The notes beneath the pieces were generated by a model that searched no databases, was not told the origin of the DNA, and worked only from the letters and a program-made list of their open reading frames with translations. The position numbers and the translations under genes are program-made. This document shows positions 3,836 to 35,214 of a stretch of DNA of 39,300 nucleotides, piece by piece. The DNA is from Nitrospirota bacterium (GTDB lineage Bacteria > Nitrospirota > Nitrospiria > JACQBZ01). The stretch is from the NCBI GenBank assembly GCA_016201865.1, contig JACQCA010000027.1, positions 1-39,300 of the forward strand. The letters run 5' to 3'. Position 1 is the first letter of the stretch. Each line of letters begins with the position of its first letter.

Positions 3836-4942
3836 ATGAGCGTTTCCTTATTGTCCTGGGTGAAACCCAAACGGCATCTCTTGGGGCTGGACGTCGGTAA
3901 AAGCGCCGTCAAGGTGGTTCAACTGGCCTCGACGCGCAAAGGGCTGATGCTGAAGTATGCCGGCCTGACCGATCTGGCGACGGCCGACGCGGACGTCGGC
4001 GATCGCGGCGTGACGATGGCCCTCTACGATCTCTTTAAGGAGAGCCGGCTCCGGCGGCAGAAGATCGCGATCAACTTCACCGGCCGCAGCCCGGTTGTCC
4101 GCTACCTCTTGTTGCCTAAAATGCCTCCGGACGAGCTGGGCGAGGCGGTCCGTTGGGAGGCGAAAAAGCTGGTTCCGTTTCCGATGGAGGAGACGGTCCT
4201 GGATTATCTGATCGTCGGCGAGACGCAGGAGCGCGACCTGAAGCGGATCGAGGTGCTGCTGGTCGCGGCCGAACGCGCCGCGGTCTTGGGACAATTGGAG
4301 TCGCTGAAGCAGGTCAATCTGCCGATTGCGGCGATGGACGTCAACCCGCTGGCGCTTTTCAATACGATCCAGCTGAATTACAAATCGGATCTGGACGACA
4401 ACCTGGTCTTCGTGGATATCGGCGCCTCGAAGATGGACATCAATATCTCGAAACAGGGGGTGTTGCGGTTTACGCGGAACGTCCAGATGGGCGGAGAAGA
4501 GATCACGCAGGCCGTCATGCGCGGGCTTCAGATCGAGCGGGAGGAGGCCGAGCGGTTGAAACGTCAAAAGGGGCTTTCCGGGGCGTCGGCTCAAGCGGGG
4601 GCCGCGGCGCCGATGGAAGGCCAGGCCCAAGATAAAGACGGACGGCTCCATGAGATCATTAAGACCGAAGCGGACCGGATGATCTTGGAGACGCAACGTT
4701 CGATGGATTACTACCGGGCCCAGTTCCGCGAGGGTTCGGTTAAAAAGATCGTGCTGATGGGCGGGACCTGCTTGATGCCCGGGTTTCAGGAATATTTCGC
4801 GTCGTACTTCGACGCCAATGTGGAGTTAGACGACCCGTTTGCCGAGATCGTCTGCGATGAGGGGGCCTTTGGGGATTTTCGACTGATGGCCCCGCGGTTT
4901 TCGACCGGCGTGGGTCTGGCTTTGAGAAAAACGGATGCTTGA
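3836..4942 (+). CDS. pilM: Type IV pilus inner-membrane platform protein PilM
   Basis: PilM is the cytoplasmic actin-like ATPase-fold protein that binds the N-terminal peptide of PilN and links the pilus alignment complex to the assembly motor. The 368-residue product shows the actin-fold signatures: LGLDVGKSAVKVVQL (phosphate 1, about residues 18-32), FVDIGASKMDINI (phosphate 2, about 199-211) and VLMGGTCLMPGF (adenosine loop, about 306-317). The ATG at 3836 has a GGGAGAAG ribosome binding site; the frame is open further upstream but that part is not pilM-like. A Gly/Ala/Gln-rich insert near residues 245-265 (SGASAQAGAAAP) looks like a flexible loop. It is the first gene of pilMNOPQ. Confidence 0.95.
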   Translation: MSVSLLSWVKPKRHLLGLDVGKSAVKVVQLASTRKGLMLKYAGLTDLATADADVGDRGVTMALYDLFKESRLRRQKIAINFTGRSPVVRYLLLPKMPPDELGEAVRWEAKKLVPFPMEETVLDYLIVGETQERDLKRIEVLLVAAERAAVLGQLESLKQVNLPIAAMDVNPLALFNTIQLNYKSDLDDNLVFVDIGASKMDINISKQGVLRFTRNVQMGGEEITQAVMRGLQIEREEAERLKRQKGLSGASAQAGAAAPMEGQAQDKDGRLHEIIKTEADRMILETQRSMDYYRAQFREGSVKKIVLMGGTCLMPGFQEYFASYFDANVELDDPFAEIVCDEGAFGDFRLMAPRFSTGVGLALRKTDA

Positions 4943-4954
4943 GCGAGTGAGACC

Positions 4955-5557
4955 ATGAAGTCGCACATTAATTTGATGGCCCGGGATATTATGTTTGAGG
5001 AGAAACCGTTTCCCCTCAGAGAGGTCGCGGTTCCTCTGATCGCCGTCGCGGCGGTGGCGGCCGTGGTTCTCTTTTCCGTGTGGGGTTTCTATCGGTCGAC
5101 GGTATTGAAGAGGGAGGTCCGTGATCTCGGCATTCAGCGGGATAAAATCCGGCAGGAGATGGCGCTGGTCAATGGAGAAGTCGGAAAATTAACCGAGAAG
5201 ACGACGGTCGATCAGACCGTGGCGGCGAGTCAGATGGCCGCGATGAAGGACCTCTTAAAAAACCGCGTTCTGTGGTCGGAGGTGATCCGGGAGATCAGCT
5301 TCCTGGCGCCGGAAGGCGTCTGGTTGATCCGAATGGAAAGCCTGGATTCAAAACCGGGCGGCCGCTTGTCGTTGGAGAACCCGAAGACGGTCCGTTTCGC
5401 CGGATGGGCCCAGTCGCAGGCCGCGGTCAACCTTTTTATCGCGGCCCTGGAGCGATCGCCGCGCTATGCGACGGTCTCGCTCGTCTATTCCCAGAAGGGG
5501 GCCGGTGAAGGGATGCAAGGGGTGAGTTTTGAACTGACGGCGATGCTTCGGCCGTGA
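4955..5557 (+). CDS. pilN: Type IV pilus assembly protein PilN
   Basis: PilN is a bitopic inner-membrane protein that pairs with PilO and docks on PilM. The 200-residue product has the expected N-terminal HINLMARD segment (PilM-binding INL motif, residues 4-11), a single membrane helix at about 25-48, a periplasmic coiled-coil region (about 50-85) and a ferredoxin-like C-terminal domain. It begins 12 bases after pilM. The domain plan, length and position all fit PilN. Confidence 0.93.
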   Translation: MKSHINLMARDIMFEEKPFPLREVAVPLIAVAAVAAVVLFSVWGFYRSTVLKREVRDLGIQRDKIRQEMALVNGEVGKLTEKTTVDQTVAASQMAAMKDLLKNRVLWSEVIREISFLAPEGVWLIRMESLDSKPGGRLSLENPKTVRFAGWAQSQAAVNLFIAALERSPRYATVSLVYSQKGAGEGMQGVSFELTAMLRP

Positions 5558-5578
5558 GGAGAGGACGAGGAGAAGACG

Positions 5579-6169
5579 TTGGCGCTGGCCGATCTTCTTA
5601 AACGACTGGATCTCGGCAAACTTTCGGCGCGCGAGCGGATTCTCGCGATTCTGACCATCGGAGCCGTCGTGTCGGTCTATGGAGGTTATATTCTGATGCC
5701 GATGATGCGGGAGACGAAGGCGCTGCAGGCCGAGAAGATCTCCCTCACGGCCGAAATCCAACAAGGAATGGCGACGGCGCCGCTGCTTCAGAAACGGGCC
5801 GAAGAGCTTCGGCAGGCGGCCCTGGCCAAAGAGGTCGGCACCGAATTCACCGGGAAGGCGGGAGATCTCTTTCCCGGAGGCAGCCGGTTGTCGGGTCTAT
5901 TGGAGGAGATGACACGACTGGCCCGTTTACGTCGGATCGAATTTGTATCGGTTCGGCCGGACGCGATCGAGGACAAGGGCGCGTACCTCCAGTTGACGCT
6001 CCAGATCGATGTTCAATCCCGCTTCCGCGAGTTGGGGGATTATCTCCTGATGCTTGAAAATCTCCCGCGCGCCGTTCTGATCCAAGAGTTGAAGGTCGAG
6101 ACGCGGGTCGATGTCAGTCCTTCCGTATTGGCGCATTTGAAGGTCATGACTTACCTGGGGAAGGAGTAA
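5579..6169 (+). CDS. pilO: Type IV pilus assembly protein PilO
   Basis: PilO is the partner of PilN in the periplasmic alignment subcomplex. The 196-residue product has a short cytoplasmic part, one membrane helix (about residues 22-42, ILAILTIGAVVSVYGGYIL), a coiled coil (about 45-85) and a C-terminal PilO fold containing FRELGDYLLMLENLPR and a VETRVDV strand. The start is a TTG with a GAGGAGA ribosome binding site; no nearby in-frame ATG would keep the N-terminal helix. It follows pilN by 21 bases and precedes pilP by 3. Confidence 0.93.
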   Translation: MALADLLKRLDLGKLSARERILAILTIGAVVSVYGGYILMPMMRETKALQAEKISLTAEIQQGMATAPLLQKRAEELRQAALAKEVGTEFTGKAGDLFPGGSRLSGLLEEMTRLARLRRIEFVSVRPDAIEDKGAYLQLTLQIDVQSRFRELGDYLLMLENLPRAVLIQELKVETRVDVSPSVLAHLKVMTYLGKE

Positions 6170-13454: not shown

Positions 13455-14270
13455 GTGCTGAAGATTGCCGGTATTCAGATGAGCTGCGGCAAGGATCCCG
13501 AGGCCAATCTCAAAAAAGCGATCGGGATGATGACCCTTGCGGCGGAACGCGGCGCCCGGCTGATCGCCACGCCGCAACTCTTTCACTTGCCTTGGTTTGC
13601 GTTTGAAACTCGGAAAGACTATTTCGAGTGGGCCGAGACCGTGGAGGGCCCGACCGTTTCGCGTCTTCGGGAGGAGGCCGCGCGGCTCGGAGTGGTTCTC
13701 GTCGTTTCCTTTTTTGAGAAGGACGGCGATTCGTATTACAACACGGCCGCCGTGATCGAAAAAGACGGGAGGCTGCTCGGCCGGTACCGCAAAATCCATC
13801 TCCCGCAGATCCCGTTGTGGGAGGAGAAGTCCTATTTCAAATCGGGCGATCTGGGTTTTCCGGTCTTTGAAACCTCCGTTGCCCGGATCGGCGTCCAGAT
13901 CTGCTGGGACAATTTTTTCCCGGAGGGAAGCCGCATCATGGCTCTTCAGGGGGCGCAGCTCCTCGTGGCTCCGACGGCGGCGGCCTTCGCCTCGCAATCC
14001 CGCTGGGAAAAGATGATCTGCGCGAATGCGATCGCCAACAACCTCTTTATTCTTCGGATCAACCGGGTGGGCAAAGAGGCGCGGCAACATTTTTACGGCC
14101 GGAGCTTCTGCGTCAATCCGTTCGGAGAATTGATCGCCTCTCCGACGGGGGCGCGCGACGCCGTCCTCTTCTCGGAGCTGGATCTGAACGAGGTTGAGGA
14201 GACGCGCGAGATCTGGACCTTCTTCAAAGACCGCCGGCCCGAACTCTACCGGGAACTCTCCCAGCCATGA
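13455..14270 (+). CDS. Nitrilase-superfamily (carbon-nitrogen hydrolase) protein, catalytic Glu replaced
   Basis: These proteins hydrolyse amides or nitriles through a Glu-Lys-Cys triad. The 271-residue product keeps Lys (K113 in RYRKIHLP), the second Glu (E123 in WEEKSYF) and Cys (C150 in VQICWDNFFPEG). The catalytic Glu normally found in a PELF-type motif is Gln: TPQLFHLPWF, Q41, codon CAA. It also has the C-terminal NRVG and FCVNPFGE strands, so the fold is complete and of N-carbamoylputrescine amidase style. The GTG start has a GAGAGGG site. It lies 30 bases after secA and overlaps the next gene by ATGA. Whether it is active is open. Confidence 0.85.
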   Translation: MLKIAGIQMSCGKDPEANLKKAIGMMTLAAERGARLIATPQLFHLPWFAFETRKDYFEWAETVEGPTVSRLREEAARLGVVLVVSFFEKDGDSYYNTAAVIEKDGRLLGRYRKIHLPQIPLWEEKSYFKSGDLGFPVFETSVARIGVQICWDNFFPEGSRIMALQGAQLLVAPTAAAFASQSRWEKMICANAIANNLFILRINRVGKEARQHFYGRSFCVNPFGELIASPTGARDAVLFSELDLNEVEETREIWTFFKDRRPELYRELSQP

Positions 14271-15400
14271 AAACGGTCGAACGCCTCCAACGATACCGCA
14301 ACGAGAATCATCGCCTCCGGGCGGATCTCGCGCAACGCTCCAAGGAACTGGCCTTCTTCATCAACAGCAGCAAGGCCCTGACCTCGACACTGGAGTTCAA
14401 AAAAATCCTGCGGGTTATCATGGAGCGTGCGCAGCGGCTGATCAAATGCGACGCCTGGTCGCTTCTGCTGCTGGACGAGGAGCTGCAGGAGCTCCGTTTT
14501 GTGGCGGCCAAAGGAACGAAGGCGAAGGACTTCAAACGATTCCGTTTAAAGGTGGGGCAGGGGATCGCCGGATGGGTGGCCAAGACGGGACAGCCGCTGA
14601 TGATCCATGATGTGCACAAGGACAAACGGTTCAATAAGGCGCTCGACCGCATCACGCGGTACAAGACCCGATCCGTCCTGTGCGTGCCGATCGTGAATAA
14701 GAAGCGGACGATCGGCGTTCTGGAGATGATCAACAAGATCAACGGTCAGCCCTTTGAGGAAAAGGACCGGGATCTCCTCCGAAAACTGGTGGACCAAGCC
14801 GCGATCGCAATGGAACGGGCCATCCTGTACGAGCGCATGTCGAACCTGGCCATTACGGACGACCTGACCAAGCTGTTCAATTTCCGGTATCTGGATCAGA
14901 TCCTCGACCGCGAGATCAGCCGTTGCCAGCGATACCGGTCCGTGCTGTCCCTGGTCTTCTTCGACATGGACTACTTCAAGCACGTCAACGATACGCACGG
15001 CCATCTGATGGGCAGCAAGGTGTTGATCGAGGTGGCCCATCTTCTGATTGAGAACCTCCGGACCGTGGATATCATCGCGCGTTACGGCGGGGACGAGTTC
15101 GTGGTGGTTTTGCCGGAAACGGACGTCCAAACCACGACCCGCATCACGGAACGGCTTCACAAACGACTCAAGGCGCATGAGTTCCTGAAGGAAGAGGGCT
15201 TGCGTATCCAAATGACGGCCAGCTACGGGATCGCCGGCTATCCGGAACATGCGCAGACCAAACGGGATCTGGTCCATCTTGCGGATCAGGCCATGTATCA
15301 GGCCAAGAACAGCGGCCGAAGCAGGATCTGCGTGGCCGAGAAGCCGCGGGGGGGATTGCGGAGCCGACTGATTAAAGAAGCCGGGGCGGTTCGTCCTTAA
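14267..15400 (+). CDS. GAF-GGDEF diguanylate cyclase
   Basis: This protein makes cyclic di-GMP, the signal that commonly controls pili, adhesion and biofilm. The 377-residue product has an N-terminal coiled coil (about residues 5-30), a GAF sensor domain (about 45-185) and a GGDEF domain (about 195-355). The active motif is intact (GGDEF at 274-278), with a product-inhibition site RTVD at 265-268, exactly five residues upstream. It carries no membrane segment, so it is cytoplasmic; the GAF ligand is unknown. The start overlaps the preceding stop (ATGA), so the two genes are coupled. Its 3' end overlaps that of convergent rmuC by 29 bases. Confidence 0.95.
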   Translation: MKTVERLQRYRNENHRLRADLAQRSKELAFFINSSKALTSTLEFKKILRVIMERAQRLIKCDAWSLLLLDEELQELRFVAAKGTKAKDFKRFRLKVGQGIAGWVAKTGQPLMIHDVHKDKRFNKALDRITRYKTRSVLCVPIVNKKRTIGVLEMINKINGQPFEEKDRDLLRKLVDQAAIAMERAILYERMSNLAITDDLTKLFNFRYLDQILDREISRCQRYRSVLSLVFFDMDYFKHVNDTHGHLMGSKVLIEVAHLLIENLRTVDIIARYGGDEFVVVLPETDVQTTTRITERLHKRLKAHEFLKEEGLRIQMTASYGIAGYPEHAQTKRDLVHLADQAMYQAKNSGRSRICVAEKPRGGLRSRLIKEAGAVRP

Positions 15401-16475
15401 TCGCCGCCGTCGGGGCCTCCGCCTGACCTGCCGAGACCAGACGTTCCCCAAACCGGTCCAACCGGATCGAAGCCTCATCGTACCGGCCTTTGGCGTTCGT
15501 GAGGTGAGTCCCGATCACCTCGAATTCCTTCCGGAACCGTTCAAAGTCCCCCCGCAACCGTTCCAGATGGCTGATGATGATCTGTGCGCTCTTCTCGATC
15601 TGCAGTCCTTTCAATCCCATCACGATTGCCTGGAGATAGGCATACAGACTGTTGGGCGAGACCGGGATCACCTTCCGTTCGAGCGCATAGGCCGACAGGC
15701 TCTTCTCGTCGCCCAAGTTTTCATCCTTGATGATCGTTTCGTAATAGACATTTTCGGCCGGGATATACATGAGCGCAAAGGGGAAGGTCCCTTCGTCCGG
15801 CAAGATGTATTTATCTGCGATGGCATCGATATGCTTCTTGACATCCGTGTTGAACTTTTTGCGTGCGGTCTTCCGATCTTCATCGTTTTTGGATTCAACC
15901 ACCCGACGGAAATTCTCCAACGGAAACTTCGAATCCACCGGCACCATGAATTGGCCCAGCCGGACTACGGCATCGACCGCCTCGCCGCTCTTGAAACGGT
16001 GCTGTAGAGAAAAGTGATTGGGCGGCAGGATTTGGCCCAGGAGGTCTCCTAAAAACAGCTCGCCCAGGATTCCGCGCAGCTTCGGGGCCCGGAGAATCTC
16101 CTGGAGGCTCGCGATGTCCTTCCCGACGTCGAACACCTGCTGCGTCGCCTTCGACAGCTCGCCCAGGTTCTGCTTTACTTCGCCGACCACCCGCGCCGCA
16201 TTATCGAGGCGCGTTCCAATCTGGCCGGTCGCGTTCTGGAGTTGCTGTACCATCGCGGTCAACTGCTGGTTGACCTGCTGCGTGACGGACGAGAGCTGAA
16301 GATTGAGCGCGGTCGTGTTGCCGGTGATTGTTTCGGTAATCTGCTGCCGAAGCGCATCGACCTGCTGCTGCATCACGAGCATGCCGGTATCCTGCGGCTT
16401 ATTTTTGCCCTGCAGCAGTATAACGATCAGCAGGCCGACCACGGCGACGAGTCCGATGACCAAAACAGTTTCCAT
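15372..16475 (-). CDS. rmuC: DNA recombination protein RmuC
   Basis: RmuC-family proteins limit recombination at inverted repeats and carry a PD-(D/E)XK nuclease-like core. The 367-residue product starts at METVLVIGLVAVVGLLIVILL, an N-terminal membrane helix, followed by a long Gln-rich coiled coil (about residues 35-130) and the core domain with KLRGILGELFLGDLL, VDAVVRLG, VPVDSKFPLENF and FALMYIPAENVYYE. The reading frame continues upstream but this ATG fits the family. No ribosome binding site is seen; a promoter sits 7 bases before the ATG, implying a leaderless message. Confidence 0.92.
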   Translation of the reverse strand: METVLVIGLVAVVGLLIVILLQGKNKPQDTGMLVMQQQVDALRQQITETITGNTTALNLQLSSVTQQVNQQLTAMVQQLQNATGQIGTRLDNAARVVGEVKQNLGELSKATQQVFDVGKDIASLQEILRAPKLRGILGELFLGDLLGQILPPNHFSLQHRFKSGEAVDAVVRLGQFMVPVDSKFPLENFRRVVESKNDEDRKTARKKFNTDVKKHIDAIADKYILPDEGTFPFALMYIPAENVYYETIIKDENLGDEKSLSAYALERKVIPVSPNSLYAYLQAIVMGLKGLQIEKSAQIIISHLERLRGDFERFRKEFEVIGTHLTNAKGRYDEASIRLDRFGERLVSAGQAEAPTAAIKDEPPRLL

Positions 16476-16482
16476 GCGCCCG

Positions 16483-16511
16483 ATTCTATCCGTGCGGGTT
16501 CCATAAGTCAA
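16483..16511 (-). promoter_or_regulatory. Promoter of rmuC, probably giving a leaderless transcript
   Basis: On the minus strand: TTGACT (16511-16506), 17-base spacer, TAGAAT (16488-16483), then CGGGCGC and ATG. The predicted transcription start coincides with the start codon. Confidence 0.6.
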
Positions 16512-16694
16512 CCCGCTTGCCTTCCTTAGGAAATTCCGGTATGTTAGGGCCATCTGAAGCTTTCCTTTATACATAATCCTATCTATTGTGGGTCTTGCAG
16601 AACGCGAGATTGCGGCCACAAGATTTCTCGGAATTGCGGCTGAGGTTATGGTCTTATCACCGGAGTACATGCAGATCAACGGACAAAGACTACT

Positions 16695-17288
16695 GTGGAA
16701 CGCGATGATCTGGAAGAGTTACACTACATTACACCGATTAAAAACATACCTTCAATCTGTCGTTTAGGAATCTTGTCGCATCGGAAGGCTGAAACATTAA
16801 AACATGAATCCGTAGCGATGGAGGAAATTCAAAAACGTCGAGCCAAGAAAACCGTTCCTCCAGGGCGTTTGCTGCACGATTATGTGAACCTCTATATTTG
16901 CGCTCGGAACAAGATGCTCTTCAAAATTCACAGCCAGCACGAGAAGTTGTGCATTCTGCGAATCGGTCCAACAGTTCTTGATCTTCCGAGGGTTATTGTG
17001 TCGGACCGAAATGCATCGAGCGATTATGCCCGTTTTGAGCCGGCACCCTCAGGTCTTCGAGTTATTGATCGAGATCTGGTTTTCGCAAAATACTGGACAC
17101 ATCCTGATGACCCATTTGAAGAGATGAGACATGGATCTATAAAATGTGCAGAGGTACTTGTTCCGGACAGCGTTCCATATCGGTTCATCATGGGAGCTTA
17201 TGTGTCCGGCAATGAGTCTTTGACCCGCTTCAATGCATTGGATGTAAACGTCCCGGCCAGCATCAATGGGGATTTGTTCTTCCGATAA
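16695..17288 (+). CDS. darT: DarT toxin, DNA ADP-ribosyltransferase
   Basis: DarT attaches ADP-ribose from NAD+ to thymidine (or guanosine) in single-stranded DNA, blocking replication; with DarG it forms a toxin-antitoxin and phage-defence pair. The 197-residue product matches the DarT (DUF4433) fold: LHYITPIKNIPSICRLGILSH (NAD-binding His10 and following loop), HDYVNLYICARNKML with Arg71, and KCAEVLVPDSVP with Glu153 in the catalytic position. It appears intact. The GTG start is the only in-frame choice and lacks a clear ribosome binding site, which could keep toxin levels low. darG follows after 10 bases. The region is visibly richer in A+T than its flanks. Confidence 0.92.
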   Translation: MERDDLEELHYITPIKNIPSICRLGILSHRKAETLKHESVAMEEIQKRRAKKTVPPGRLLHDYVNLYICARNKMLFKIHSQHEKLCILRIGPTVLDLPRVIVSDRNASSDYARFEPAPSGLRVIDRDLVFAKYWTHPDDPFEEMRHGSIKCAEVLVPDSVPYRFIMGAYVSGNESLTRFNALDVNVPASINGDLFFR

Positions 17289-17298
17289 GGAGGCCCAC

Positions 17299-18426
17299 AT
17301 GGTCAAAGTTCTAATAGGGGATCTCTTCCAATCAGAAGCGCAGACACTTGTTAATACGGTCAACTGCATCGGCGTGATGGGCAAGGGCATTGCTTTGCAA
17401 TTCAAGGAACGTTTTCCGGATATGTATGAGGATTATGTCCGGCGATGCAAAGCTGGAGAAGTTAAGCTCGGACAACCTTATCTGTATCGCTCTCTGATGC
17501 CGCCGTGGGTCTTAAACTTTCCGACGAAGGATCACTGGCGATCAGTGGCCAGATTACAGGATATTGTTCGTGGTCTGGAATATCTTGAACGCTACTATGT
17601 TGAGTGGGGCATTGCTTCATTAGCAGTCCCGCCTTTGGGATGCGGCGAGGGTCAACTCGAATGGCGCGTGGTCGGGTCGACGCTCTACCGTCATCTAAAG
17701 CGCTTCACCATACCCGTGGAGCTTTACGCGCCCTTCGGAACCCCTCATGAGGAATTGCAGCCAGCATACTTAGAAGGTGCTCTGACAGGTAATGGAACGA
17801 AGACGTCATCTACATCTCCTAGGCACATTGAACCTTCATGGGTCGCACTTGTAGAAATACTGGATCGGCTCGAACAGGAGCCTTATCACTGGCCGGTAGG
17901 CCGGATCACGTTTCAGAAAATTGCCTACTTCGCGACCGAATCTGGTATTCCGACAGGGCTTCAATACCAACGGGGCAGCTTTGGTCCCTATGCTCCGACA
18001 CTGAAAAGTCTCGTCACGAAGCTTGTGAATAACGGTCTTATTTGTGAGAAGCGCCATGGCCAGATGTTTTCGGTAAAGGTCGGACCCACCTTTGAGGACG
18101 CCCACAAGGCTTATGAGGATGACCTTGCTCAGTGGCGAACAACCATAGACAAACTTGCAGATCTCTTCATGCGTATGCATACCAAACAAGCTGAACTGGC
18201 GGCAACAGTGCACTTTGCGGCCAGTTCTCTAATACAACAGGGTCAAGAGAAGCCGAGTGAAATGGATGTCCTGAACGAAGTTATGAAGTGGAAGCAGAAA
18301 CGGCGGCCACCGTTAAACAAAGATGAAGTTGCCCTTGCAATTCGAAACCTGAGCATGCTGGGCTGGCTGGACGTCAAGCCGAGTGCGGATCTGCCTGTGA
18401 AGGAAGAGGCTCTACTGGATGTCTGA
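17299..18426 (+). CDS. darG: DarG antitoxin, macrodomain DNA ADP-ribosylglycohydrolase
   Basis: DarG removes ADP-ribose from DNA and also binds and blocks DarT. The 375-residue product has an N-terminal macrodomain (about residues 1-155): VKVLIGDLFQSEAQTLVNTVNC, GVMGKGIALQF, NFPTKDHWR (Lys77 in the position of the catalytic lysine of known DarG proteins, from memory) and PPLGCGEGQLEW. The C-terminal domain (about 180-375), with KIAYFATESGIPTGLQYQRGSFGPYAP, resembles the Panacea/SocA-like (DUF4065-type) antitoxin fold and should contact DarT. The ATG at 17299 has a strong AAGGAGG site, much better than that of darT, which suits antitoxin excess. Confidence 0.93.
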   Translation: MVKVLIGDLFQSEAQTLVNTVNCIGVMGKGIALQFKERFPDMYEDYVRRCKAGEVKLGQPYLYRSLMPPWVLNFPTKDHWRSVARLQDIVRGLEYLERYYVEWGIASLAVPPLGCGEGQLEWRVVGSTLYRHLKRFTIPVELYAPFGTPHEELQPAYLEGALTGNGTKTSSTSPRHIEPSWVALVEILDRLEQEPYHWPVGRITFQKIAYFATESGIPTGLQYQRGSFGPYAPTLKSLVTKLVNNGLICEKRHGQMFSVKVGPTFEDAHKAYEDDLAQWRTTIDKLADLFMRMHTKQAELAATVHFAASSLIQQGQEKPSEMDVLNEVMKWKQKRRPPLNKDEVALAIRNLSMLGWLDVKPSADLPVKEEALLDV

Positions 18427-18661
18427 GGACCTTCGCTCATCAAAAACCATTTGGTGTTTCAGCCTAAGAGTTTCGCTCACTCGCTGCCGAAGAAGATTAG
18501 AGGACAGTTTGCCCATAATTGAAAAGGTGGAGTTGAGCAGGAAGGAAAAGATATAAGCCGCAAAAACGGATTTATTTGCATGAAGGATGCAAGTGGAACA
18601 AGCAGCAAAAGACTCAACTCTTTTATAGTATAGTGCATATTGGACAGAGGAGACACTAAAC
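18427..18661. other. A+T-rich intergenic stretch
   Basis: These 235 bases contain no gene that I can support. A weak hairpin (AAACCA with TGGTGTTT, about 18445-18461) follows darG and could terminate its transcript. TATAGT at 18624-18629 is a possible -10 box for the next gene, but I see no good -35 box. Confidence 0.3.
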
Positions 18662-19150
18662 TTGTTATTGTATTTAGCTGCTGGCCTTTGGATTATAGCT
18701 ATTCTTTACAGTTCGACCAATATTTTTTGGGCGGCAGCTGTTTATCTATGTGCAGGATTCATATGGTATAGTCGGTATTATCTTGGAAAACCTTCATTTT
18801 CTCTAAGCCCCTATGCATATCATCCGGTTATACTTCTTCTACTCACTCTCCTTTGGCCTCTAGGGGCATTGTACGAAGCATATGGGCACTACCGCCTATT
18901 AAGGCATCCTCAGCGCTTTCTGGTTCTCTATGGTAATACCGGAGAAAGTAGACTACTACAAACTCCTTATCAGACTCGTTTTGCGTCGTGGGATAAAGCT
19001 ATAGCATTTGCAAGAAAAGAAGCTGCTCAATCCGGTTATCCCTCATTAATAACGGATCTTGCAGAGTACGCAAAGACTCCACTACTTGGCAATCGAGATA
19101 ACGTGAGCTATTCGGTTTCACCAACCGGCGACATAAAGCGCGATAATTAA
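18662..19150 (+). CDS. Orphan membrane protein in the darTG island
   Basis: This 162-residue product is not one I recognise. It shows about three hydrophobic segments near residues 1-15, 21-40 and 56-75 (HPVILLLLTLLWPLGALYEAY), then a soluble C-terminal half with YQTRFASWDKAIAFARKEAAQSG. The start is TTG with a GAGGAG site at about 18647-18652. Composition is much more A+T-rich than the core: 22 G+C in the first 60 bases by hand count, against 40 of 60 in a nuoN segment. It may be a recently acquired gene travelling with darTG. No function is proposed. Confidence 0.6.
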   Translation: MLLYLAAGLWIIAILYSSTNIFWAAAVYLCAGFIWYSRYYLGKPSFSLSPYAYHPVILLLLTLLWPLGALYEAYGHYRLLRHPQRFLVLYGNTGESRLLQTPYQTRFASWDKAIAFARKEAAQSGYPSLITDLAEYAKTPLLGNRDNVSYSVSPTGDIKRDN

Positions 19151-19309
19151 ACCAAGCACTACAACGGCCAGCGGCATCTCAATGATAAAGCTCGACAGGC
19201 CGGGAAAGACCGCGTGGATCGGGAGGCCTTTATAAAAGAGCTGGCCCGAATCACGGAGAGGGCACGAAAAGGGAGATCCGCGCTTTCCGAGATGACGGAA
19301 GAGACATAA
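19151..19309 (+). pseudogene. Gene remnant lacking a start codon
   Basis: Directly after the stop at 19148-19150, the same frame stays open for 52 codons to the TAA at 19307-19309. The reading includes DREAFIKELARITERARKG and ends SALSEMTEET. The charged, helical, higher-GC coding character resembles the 3' end of a real protein, but no start codon or ribosome binding site fits. It may be the tail of a gene cut by arrival of the A+T-rich island. The family is unknown. Confidence 0.35.
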
Positions 19310-19325
19310 TCGCTCTCCTTAGAAA

Positions 19326-19357
19326 ATCTCAAATTTGAGATCTCAAATCTCAAATCC
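19326..19357. repeat. Palindromic TCTCAAAT repeat cluster
   Basis: ATCTCAAATTTGAGAT (19326-19341) is a perfect 16-base palindrome; CTCAAATCTCAAATCC follows directly, giving further copies of CTCAAAT. The pattern looks like a small dispersed palindromic repeat. It lies just before the next promoter. Confidence 0.6.
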
Positions 19358-19361
19358 TTCT

Positions 19362-19391
19362 TTGACTTTCCTCCATACAAGATACTAAAAT
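19362..19391 (+). promoter_or_regulatory. Promoter of the phosphotransferase/kinase gene
   Basis: TTGACT (19362-19367), 18-base spacer, TAAAAT (19386-19391). A GGAGG ribosome binding site follows before the ATG at 19414. Confidence 0.5.
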
Positions 19392-19413
19392 GGATCTATG
19401 AACGGAGGCGCGG

Positions 19414-20970
19414 ATGATCCGGTATCGCTCGCTCATGAATCCGGCGGCTTATCCCCATCCTGTGCGGGAAGTCCGGCATATTGCGACCCATATCTCGGAC
19501 GTCTTCCTGACCGGCCCCTTCGCTTATAAGATCAAAAAGCCGTTGGATCTTAAATTTCTTGATTATTCCACGTTGGAGAAGCGGCGTTATTACTGCGAGC
19601 GGGAGGTGGTTTTGAATCGCCGGTTGGCGCCGGAAATTTATCTAAGCGTCGCGCCGATCACGCGGGACGGTGAGGATTTCCATGTGGAGGGGAAGGGCGT
19701 TCCGGTGGAGTATGCCGTAAAAATGGTCCAGTTCAGTCAGGAAGGTCTGATGGATGCGATGGCCGAGCGGGGTGAACTGTCGGTGCGGCATATCCTTCCC
19801 TTGGCGGAACAAGCGGCCCGGTTCCACCGGTCTGCGGAACGGGCCGACGACGCCTTCGGGACGCCGGAGGTCGTCGGGGAAAATGTGCTCCGGAACTTTG
19901 AGCAGACGGCGAAATATCAGCGCATCGTGGTGGATCCGACGCGGTTTTTGAGACTCAAAACCTATTCGGAAGATTTCTTGAAACAAAAAACCGACCTGTT
20001 CCGGAAACGGATCGAGTCCGGCGCGATCCGGATCTGCCACGGCGATCTGCATCTTCAAAATATCTGTCTGGATCGCGGACGGTTGATCATCTTCGACTGC
20101 ATCGAGTTCAATGATTCTTTGAATCATATCGACGTCATCAACGAGGTCGCGTTTTTGCTGATGGACCTGGACCATCGAGGGCTCGCGGGGCTCGGCAACC
20201 GGTTTCTGAATGTCTATCTTGAGAAGACCCAGGATTACGACGGGCTGGCCGTGCTGGATTTCTATCTTATTTATCGCGCCTGCGTGAGGGCGAAGGTGGC
20301 CAGCTTTCTTTTGGACGATCCGGATATCACGGAGCAGGAGAAAAAGGCCGCGCGGGAACGCGCCTCGGCCTATTTTGAGCTGGCGGAGCGCTATCTCACC
20401 GACCATCGGCCCGGTCTGATACTGATGGCGGGGGTGAGCGGATCGGGGAAGAGCACCGTCGCGTCGGATCTGGCCGAAGGCCTTGGAGGTGTGATGATTC
20501 GATCGGACGCCGTCCGGAAATCCCTGGCCGGATTGAATTTGGGCCGCCGGATGTCGGCGGAATTCGATCAAGGGATCTACACCCCGGAAATGACGGAGTC
20601 GACGTACGACGGTCTGTTGGAACGGGCCGGGGCCGTGATCGCGAGCGGGCGCTGGGCCATTCTCGATGCCACCTACGCCCGGAAAAGCCACCGGCAGATC
20701 GCAAGGTCGTGGGCCGAGAAGCGGGCGATGCCTTTTGTGATTCTGCATTGCACGGCGCCCTTATCCGTTCTCGAAGCCCGTCTGGCCCAAAGGACGGCGG
20801 CCGGAATGGATCTTTCGGATGCCGACGTCGAGATTATGCGGCGTCAGCTCACGGTGTTTGAGCCGTTCGATCAAGATGAGGCGGGATATGTGGTCCGGGT
20901 GGATACGGAGAAAGAATGGAACGCGGAGGGCGTGATCGCGGCATGTCTAAAGAAGGCAGACCGTCCTTGA
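19414..20970 (+). CDS. Aminoglycoside-phosphotransferase-like and P-loop kinase fusion protein
   Basis: The 518-residue product joins two kinase folds. The N-terminal part (about residues 1-320) is an APH-like phosphotransferase with the catalytic loop HGDLHLQN (209-216) and the metal-binding segment IIFDCIEFN (225-233). The C-terminal part (about 335-518) is a P-loop kinase of the gluconate/zeta-toxin type, with Walker A GVSGSGKST (about 340-348). This COG2187-COG0645 architecture is widespread, but its substrate is not established; drug resistance should not be assumed. It has a GGAGG site and its own promoter. The next gene starts inside its 3' end. Confidence 0.9.
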   Translation: MIRYRSLMNPAAYPHPVREVRHIATHISDVFLTGPFAYKIKKPLDLKFLDYSTLEKRRYYCEREVVLNRRLAPEIYLSVAPITRDGEDFHVEGKGVPVEYAVKMVQFSQEGLMDAMAERGELSVRHILPLAEQAARFHRSAERADDAFGTPEVVGENVLRNFEQTAKYQRIVVDPTRFLRLKTYSEDFLKQKTDLFRKRIESGAIRICHGDLHLQNICLDRGRLIIFDCIEFNDSLNHIDVINEVAFLLMDLDHRGLAGLGNRFLNVYLEKTQDYDGLAVLDFYLIYRACVRAKVASFLLDDPDITEQEKKAARERASAYFELAERYLTDHRPGLILMAGVSGSGKSTVASDLAEGLGGVMIRSDAVRKSLAGLNLGRRMSAEFDQGIYTPEMTESTYDGLLERAGAVIASGRWAILDATYARKSHRQIARSWAEKRAMPFVILHCTAPLSVLEARLAQRTAAGMDLSDADVEIMRRQLTVFEPFDQDEAGYVVRVDTEKEWNAEGVIAACLKKADRP

Positions 20971-33775: not shown

Positions 33776-35214
33776 CGTTTTCCGTGACCGACATCGGCGC
33801 CGTCCTTCCGGAAATCCTCATCGCGGTTTACGCCTGCGCCATCCTCCTGATCGAGCCGTTCCTGCCCAAGGATCGCCGGGAGATCCTGGCCTATTTCGGA
33901 CTGGCGGCGTTGGGACTGGCTTTTATCGCGACATGGCAGCTCCTATGGGCCGATCTGACGGTCTTGAACGGGATGTTCGTTCTGGATCCGTTCGGCAATT
34001 TCTTCAAACTGTTGCTGTATGTCGCGGCCATAATGACCATCCTGCTCTCGATGGGTTATCTCCGGCGCGAGAGGATCGATCTCGGGGAGTATTATGCCTT
34101 TATCCTGCTGGCCATCTGCGGGATGATGATCATGGTGTCGGGTTCGGATCTCGTCACGGTCTTCTTGGGGCTCGAGCTGATGTCGATCACCTTCTATATC
34201 CTGGTCGGCTTCAAACGTTTTGAGGAAAAATCCCTGGAGGCCTCGGCTAAATATTTTATTCTGGGATCCTTCTCGTCCGGAATTCTATTATTCGGCATCT
34301 CGCTTTTGTACGGCCTCTCCGGGACGACGAACTTGGAGGCCGTGGCCCTTCATCTTCGGGGCGCGGATCCGGGCAATCCGGCCTGGGTCCTGGCCGTGAT
34401 CCTCCTCGTGGCGGGGTTCGGTTTCAAGATTGCGGCCGTCCCGTTCCATATGTGGGCGCCGGATGTGTACGAAGGCGCGCCCACGCCGGTCACGGCCTTT
34501 CTCTCGGTCGGCTCCAAGGCGGCCAGCTTTGCGGTCTTCCTCCGCGTCTTCATGGAGGCCCTGGGCGGGATTCATGCCGACTGGCGGTTCCTGCTCATTC
34601 TGCTTTCGGTGATCACGATCGTGATGGGCAGCGTGGTGGCGCTGGTTCAGACCAACATCAAGCGGATGCTGGCCTACTCCGGCATCGCCCATTCCGGTTA
34701 TGCCTTGATCGGCCTTCTCGTCGGAGACCGTCTCGGGATCTTCAGCCTGATGCTTTATATGCCGATCTATGCCGTCATGACGCTCGGCGCTTTCGGCGTC
34801 GTGACGCTGCTTCGCCGCGGGGGCGTCGAAGGGGACGCGATCGACGACTTCGCGGGTCTGGCCAAAAAGAACCGGCTGGCGGCCTTGGCGATGCTGATCT
34901 TCATGTTCTCGCTGGCCGGGATCCCGCCGACAGCCGGCTTCATCGCGAAATTTTATATCTTCATGGCGGCCGTGAACGTCCATCTGACCTGGCTGGCGGT
35001 TCTTGGCGTGATCTTCACGGCCGTCTCGGCCTATTTCTATCTCAAGGTCGTGATGGTGATGTACATGAAGGAGCCCGATGAGGAGGTCCATCTGGCCGCC
35101 CCGCCGGCGGTCGTGATGGTCCTGGCGGTCGCGGCCGTCGCGGTCTTGCTGCTCGGGATCTATCCCGGCCCGTTTTTGGATTATGCCCAAAATGCGGCAT
35201 TGAAGATTCGATAG
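33772..35214 (+). CDS. nuoN: NADH-quinone oxidoreductase subunit N
   Basis: NuoN is one of three antiporter-like proton-pumping subunits. The 480-residue product has about 14 membrane helices and the conserved pump residues: E135 in FLGLELMSITFYIL, K218 in FGFKIAAVPFHMWAPDVYEGAPTP, and a later Lys in GIPPTAGFIAKFYIF. It is intact and of normal length. With NuoL and NuoM missing from the locus, it is the only large pump subunit encoded here. It is the last gene of the operon; no terminator is visible after it. Confidence 0.97.
   Translation: MTFSVTDIGAVLPEILIAVYACAILLIEPFLPKDRREILAYFGLAALGLAFIATWQLLWADLTVLNGMFVLDPFGNFFKLLLYVAAIMTILLSMGYLRRERIDLGEYYAFILLAICGMMIMVSGSDLVTVFLGLELMSITFYILVGFKRFEEKSLEASAKYFILGSFSSGILLFGISLLYGLSGTTNLEAVALHLRGADPGNPAWVLAVILLVAGFGFKIAAVPFHMWAPDVYEGAPTPVTAFLSVGSKAASFAVFLRVFMEALGGIHADWRFLLILLSVITIVMGSVVALVQTNIKRMLAYSGIAHSGYALIGLLVGDRLGIFSLMLYMPIYAVMTLGAFGVVTLLRRGGVEGDAIDDFAGLAKKNRLAALAMLIFMFSLAGIPPTAGFIAKFYIFMAAVNVHLTWLAVLGVIFTAVSAYFYLKVVMVMYMKEPDEEVHLAAPPAVVMVLAVAAVAVLLLGIYPGPFLDYAQNAALKIR

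Follow-up and report, generated by a model that had tools for sequence, protein, structure and literature searches.

A DarTG2-type toxin-antitoxin pair at a variable Nitrospirota site, flanked by putative remnants of an Hma operon

The darTG locus and its genes

The window, by which we mean the whole 39,300-nt stretch of Nitrospirota DNA that was analyzed, carries on its plus strand the toxin gene darT, the antitoxin gene darG and an ORF of 162 codons in this order, with rmuC on the minus strand to the left and a kinase gene on the plus strand to the right. The left neighbor (15375..16478, minus strand; Pfam RmuC 2.1e-53, scored on a longer open frame) lies at the same place in 6/6 family genomes compared, and the right neighbor, an AAA_33/APH kinase gene (19414..20970, plus strand; Pfam AAA_33 1.6e-30), is present in all six other family genomes. 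Homology to five darTG-free family genomes stops between 16476 and 16549 on the left and resumes between 19162 and 19411 on the right. We accordingly place the left border of the block at 16542..16560, and the right border falls at a C-terminal remnant (19157..19309, plus strand) of a gene found complete in another family genome, G004, to which the DNA matches at 91% over 19162-19499. The gene cut at this border presumably encodes a four-helix bundle of the 23S rRNA intervening-sequence type. The preliminary description of this DNA had drawn a block between core genes at 16560-19150, which agrees with these homology breaks and with the conserved neighbors. A scan returned four promoter-like sites, where chance alone would give 4.0; none of them leads into darT. 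No terminator was found.

The darT gene (16695..17288, plus strand) encodes 197 residues from a GTG start. The protein matches the Pfam DarT family at 1.3e-40 (139.7 bits against a cut-off of 22.5) and the PADLOC DarT model at 2.7e-40, and misses the NCBIfam cut-off (116 versus 150 bits). Its AlphaFold2 model has a pLDDT of 96.1, and in a Foldseek search with this model the PDB ranks 1-8 are all DarT or DarTG, with nothing else at E <0.001. The structures rank in the order Thermosipho DarTG, then Thermus and M. tuberculosis DarT, and last E. coli DarT1; profile comparison also puts Thermosipho DarTG nearest, and the identity to the solved DarTs that are paired with a macrodomain is 23-28%. The catalytic residues, R49 and E153, do not vary among 40 sequences and are likewise conserved in five diverse DarTs. 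E153 aligns with alanine in the two PDB chains shown, which we take to be mutants of the catalytic Glu. Upstream of the start codon there is no clear ribosome-binding site, the best Shine-Dalgarno match being 3 nt, as the preliminary description had noticed together with the GTG start. Among 52 loci with a full-length aligned darT, a GTG start occurs in 12 and a weak Shine-Dalgarno match (3 nt or less) in 21; the GTG start is ordinary among relatives.

The darG gene (17299..18426, plus strand, ATG start) is preceded by the 8-nt Shine-Dalgarno match TAAGGAGG (17286..17293, plus strand), which overlaps the darT stop and bears out the strong ribosome-binding site claimed earlier. DarG, of 375 residues, consists of an N-terminal macrodomain (Pfam Macro 2.3e-14; PDB macrodomain matches down to 7.5e-35) and a C-terminal region as in other DarGs. 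It passes the NCBIfam DarG cut-off (297 versus 250 bits), and the PADLOC DarG model aligns at 3.1e-94 over residues 1-353, by which the C-terminal DarT-binding region is predicted to be present. Its K77 (motif FPTKDHW) lies opposite the lysine of FPTKKHW in the alignment and is the likely counterpart of K80, described as the catalytic macrodomain lysine of a characterized DarG (PMC11543638). The same source separates DarTG2 from DarTG1 by the antitoxin, a macrodomain protein rather than NADAR (PMC11543638); since the antitoxin here is a macrodomain protein, and no NADAR hit was obtained for DarG with Pfam, we assign the pair to DarTG2. Neither reading frame is broken, and Pfam and PADLOC agree with the initial naming of both genes. 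The window pair is thus a complete, intact and ordinary DarTG2-type system of a known kind. In the described DarTG2 systems, DarT2 transfers ADP-ribose from NAD+ to thymidine in single-stranded DNA, the DarG macrodomain reverses this modification while DarG also holds DarT, and the pair can protect E. coli from phage (PMC11543638, PMC12255303). By analogy with the family, DNA ADP-ribosylation and phage defense would be expected of the window pair as well.

The third gene of the block (18662..19150, plus strand, TTG start, 162 aa), referred to here as the orphan gene, encodes a hydrophobic N-terminal half and a small C-terminal part. The sequence AGGAG upstream, two hydrophobic stretches marked by a simple scale, and a distant relative elsewhere indicate that it is probably a real gene. 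In a relatives search of 58 genomes it was found in its own genome and in one other, where the match is short and interrupted by a stop; in 295 genomes of the phylum it was again found in its own and in one other, at 32% identity. The predicted structure of the protein folded alone is of poor quality, with a pLDDT of 59.5, and its sole Pfam match is the sub-threshold DUF6232 (E 0.19).

Base composition and acquisition of the block

The preliminary description had called the block richer in A+T than its surroundings on the strength of two hand counts (22/60 G+C at 18661-18720 and 40/60 at 34381-34440), both of which are exact. The block (16560-19150, 2591 nt) has 47.2% G+C, against a mean of 58.6% (sd 1.6, minimum 53.6%) for 316 overlapping segments of the same size elsewhere in the 39.3 kb. 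Across 308 kb of the same genome (20 stretches), 9 of 521 such segments are as low, and eight of these fall in a single stretch, L139. That stretch is A+T-rich at 13500-20000 and carries glycosyltransferase-like and polysaccharide-export-like ORFs (named by eye), which give it the look of a polysaccharide cluster. Third-position G+C is 0.46 in darT, 0.52 in darG and 0.31 in the orphan gene, compared with 0.69 (sd 0.08) in 157 background ORFs. The low G+C that had been read as a sign of acquisition is therefore real, but it is poor evidence of acquisition by itself, because darTG lies below its flanks in 44 of the 45 relatives for which a full-length darT could be aligned and 2 kb or more of flank was available (median -0.062; window -0.093). 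Low G+C marks the darTG family, and not necessarily an arrival at this site.

Acquisition of the block, which had also been proposed earlier, is borne out by patchy presence and synonymous divergence. The darT gene is found in two of seven family genomes, namely its own and G006, which belongs to another genus and carries the pair at the same site. At synonymous sites the two copies diverge by 0.11 in darT and 0.52 in darG, whereas the flanking genes give 0.92 for secA, 0.85 for nitrilase, 0.84 for GGDEF, 0.77 for rmuC and 0.89 for the kinase gene. The darG comparison is a mosaic in which two tracts show no third-position change and others next to them lie at 0.5-0.7; the longest unchanged run is 49 codons, a length that 0/2000 permutations reached. 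Unlike darG, darT is uniformly similar between the two copies. Given the low synonymous divergence and the darG mosaic, we conclude that exchange of the cassette took place after the genera split, with at least part of this exchange attributable to recombination. The three genes do not occur with host-like composition across the clade, given that darT is present in two of seven family genomes and the orphan gene in its own genome only.

The site between rmuC and the kinase gene is variable. In G006 the place after darG is taken by an A+T-rich gene for a 401-aa AIPR protein (locus L044, 1566-2771, minus strand; Pfam 8.3e-15), directly adjacent to darG. By eye, G001 and G003 each have two small lipoprotein-like ORFs at the site, G004 has two small ORFs and G005 almost nothing; in G002 an ATPase-like ORF with a weak AAA hit lies beside a run of N.

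darTG in Hma operons and putative stumps at the locus

DarG was used to search the genome_contigs collection, which yielded 279 relatives; 80 of these were kept, and in 72 of the 80 darT adjoins darG. The largest clusters of neighboring genes are an SNF2 helicase that ends just before darT and a DUF1156 methylase that begins at the end of darG. In locus L062, PADLOC identified the helicase as HmaA (8e-189) and the methylase as HmaB (3e-138) of the helicase-methylase-ATPase system Hma, which comprises hmaA, hmaB and hmaC; the further gene after hmaB in this locus we take to be the DUF499 ATPase gene hmaC. Helicase relatives lie upstream in 10 of the 70 loci with at least 500 nt of upstream sequence, or in 11 once L057 is counted, a locus that the filter missed and in which the helicase gene runs into a truncated darT. 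On the other side, 11 loci have a methylase relative downstream, where 75 loci offer at least 500 nt of sequence. The order hmaA-darT-darG-hmaB is seen in L053, L058 and L062, all with a whole darT, although contig ends cut the helicase and methylase of L053. In these three loci, 4-13 nt separate the end of the helicase gene from darT, and hmaB begins with a start codon that shares bases with the darG stop. In a DarG tree, whose bootstrap had not fully settled and from which L130 was left out, the window and G006 group within a supported set of 13 rows (95/87), to which all five loci with a close hmaA (L053, L056, L057, L058 and L062) also belong.

The window itself does not hold hmaA, hmaB and hmaC together; what it has are putative stumps. 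Searches of the seven family genomes found no hmaB, and a search of the window's own genome found no hmaA at E 1e-30, with two of eight candidates scored. On the upstream side, a 59-codon ORF (16588-16767) reads AEREIAATRFLGIAAEVM, where helicase tails read AKREIVAARFYEISAEAV or nearly so. The putative hmaA stump, about 18 codons in the frame of this ORF ahead of darT (16597..16650, plus strand), would correspond to the C-terminal tail of an SNF2/NOV_C helicase. It scores 9.5 bits in the window. With an hmmsearch by a profile of eight helicase tails limited to the two regions, the window gave E 5.5e-4 and G006 8.1e-5; over 67 upstream regions the values were 0.018 and 0.0027, respectively. No shuffle out of 1000 reached the score in either genome, and a single profile-profile comparison gave a probability of 91.5 (E 8.8e-7); a plain alignment against 384 neighbor proteins scored 46, which the best of 100 shuffles equaled. 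Pfam found no named family in the region of the upstream ORF. We also considered that the ORF is a piece of a protein from G290 (L265, 4320-4691), which matches the window version at E 2e-5 within the locus and 0.009 over all loci. This identification was rejected, given that the G006 version does not match, and it stays as a caveat.

On the downstream side, the putative hmaB stump (18419..18453, plus strand), with a start codon that overlaps the darG stop, would represent about ten first codons of the DUF1156 methylase. Its in-register score is 21/27 in G006 and 16/27, with one indel, in the window. As a null we set aside the window, G006, 11 rows of their clade and six further hmaB-like loci; none of the 61 unrelated darG loci left exceeds 14, and 0/61 reach the score of the window or of G006. 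Shuffling gave p 0.011 for the window and 0/5000 for G006, and an unanchored alignment of the window copy gave p 0.17. Both stumps are clearer in G006 than in the window. The same downstream stump is seen in L054 and L056 with scores of 20 and 23, and L055 has a weak upstream stump (E 0.03 over 67 regions) and a downstream stump solely with free register. Together, these matches suggest that the sequences on both sides of darTG are remnants of the end of hmaA and the start of hmaB. They had been overlooked in the preliminary description and may bear on the missing ribosome-binding site of darT.

Several related loci have other arrangements. The darG gene is intact in L054, L056 and L057 while the adjoining darT is truncated or absent (truncated in L057, with no darT in L056), consistent with loss of the toxin and retention of the antitoxin. 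In L263, L264, L267, L268 and L269, which are Hma-like loci without darTG, other small genes lie between helicase and methylase; the genomes of two relatives share a similar set of small genes after hmaA, Thermus has a gene with a NYN domain there, Planktothrix two small ORFs and Nostoc one. The place after hmaA looks like a cargo slot. In L072 (gene pair 3969-4532 and 4579-5688), darG has, 47 nt upstream and in place of darT, a gene for KptA/Tpt1 RNA 2'-phosphotransferase (PF01885, 2.9e-52), another enzyme with the ADP-ribosyltransferase fold, which may be an alternative toxin paired with this antitoxin. A search with darT gave one weak match in 50,697 phage records and five matches in 72,556 plasmids. 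Many macrodomain genes in viral_contigs (L153-L232) resemble DarG over its first half, most of them with no match to the C-terminal half, and some of them could be phage antitoxin mimics.

Origin of the pair and its implications

We consider it likely that the complete DarTG2-type pair was acquired at the variable rmuC/kinase site and descends from an hmaA-darT-darG-hmaB operon, and we hold the Hma origin taken separately with much the same confidence. The most likely course is that a lone darTG was cut out of an Hma operon, because its nearest relatives sit framed by hmaA and hmaB and stumps remain. Each stump is short, the window copy fares poorly in unanchored tests, the G290 protein offers a rival match, and most darG relatives have no adjoining Hma gene in the fetched flanks (11 of 70 have one upstream), all of which would suit a plain solitary darTG that was acquired as such and resembles hmaA and hmaB by chance. 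However, both stumps match intact operons in place, order and register, those of G006 are stronger (hmaA 8.1e-5; hmaB 0/5000 shuffles), and the DarG tree groups the window and G006 with Hma-embedded loci, so we regard a chance resemblance as improbable.

We find it just as improbable that darTG is an old vertical gene of the clade that most genomes have lost. Its presence at the same site in two genera would fit such a history, but the synonymous divergence of darT (0.11, against at least 0.77 for the neighbors) and the mosaic darG speak against it; old presence with a later exchange between the two copies is a possible variant, indistinguishable from two arrivals. The preliminary description had further offered the orphan protein as an accessory part, which would make the block a three-gene defense system. 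The orphan gene does lie 235 nt downstream of darG in the same A+T-rich block, with the lowest third-position G+C (0.31). Against this, relatives of it at E 1e-3 stand beside darG in 0/80 loci (80 kept of 279 relatives), whole-collection scans confirmed none in genome_contigs and none in viral_contigs, phage and plasmid records yielded none, one other of 295 phylum genomes has the gene, and the sister locus in G006 has the AIPR gene instead. We rejected the accessory role and consider a three-gene system very improbable; as far as can be seen, the orphan gene is a neighbor and not a partner of darTG.

The steps of this explanation differ in support. The analysis bears out that DarT has the ADP-ribosyltransferase fold of its family with the invariant residues; that darTG is absent from most family genomes and is younger in synonymous sites than the surrounding genes; and that the closest relatives sit between Hma helicase and methylase, with the putative stumps at the expected places and in the expected registers. 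As in the family, DarT would attach ADP-ribose to thymidine in single-stranded DNA and DarG would bind DarT and remove the mark, and phage infection would tip the balance between the two such that viral DNA is modified and its replication stops. Translation of the ancestral darT may have been coupled to hmaA, whose end precedes darT by a few bases. Loss of hmaA would then have left darT with a weak start, possibly because this coupling was lost, and would keep the toxin low beside a well-translated antitoxin. This explanation of the weak start is a suggestion, because weak darT sites are not rare among relatives (21/52).

The pair resembles DarTG2 of Thermus, M. tuberculosis, Thermosipho and EPEC in the DarT fold and catalytic residues, in the toxin gene directly before the antitoxin gene, and in a macrodomain antitoxin with a C-terminal domain. 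It differs from them in being flanked by putative operon stumps and in its identity of 23-28% to the solved DarTs. DarTG2 nested in a type I RM system and Septu nested in Hma have been described (PMC12255303). The former likewise places darTG between genes of another DNA-targeting defense system, whereas the host system here would be Hma, whose hmaA and hmaB frame darTG in the nearest relatives of the pair and which is gone from the window except for the putative stumps. Hma also appears as a Type-1 DUF499-centered BREX-related system (PMC8565338, PMC12839542). A 2026 survey of Hma-type systems lists embedded nucleases (PMC12839542), and the terms DarT, DUF4433 and ADP-ribos are absent from its main text. 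In the open-access main texts searched, we found no paper naming both DarT and DUF1156 and no mention of a link between darTG and Hma. What is new here is the Hma slot and the putative stumps, the DarTG2 pair itself being of an already known kind.

Taken alone, low G+C in a darTG block does not indicate that the block arrived recently. The stumps on both sides, in turn, would make the history of a lone toxin-antitoxin pair readable and point to its source operon. A broader reading, which we judge evenly balanced between right and wrong, is that darTG is a plug-in back-up effector of Hma-type systems which sits in a cargo slot flanked by hmaA and hmaB, is translationally tied to both, and repeatedly escapes when its host operon is lost, with stumps of the two neighbors kept as scars; in further Hma systems this slot would be filled by different cargo. 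If the history read from the stumps holds, darTG would serve as an abortive-infection back-up within a restriction-like system, and the search for stumps may offer a way to trace other solitary pairs.
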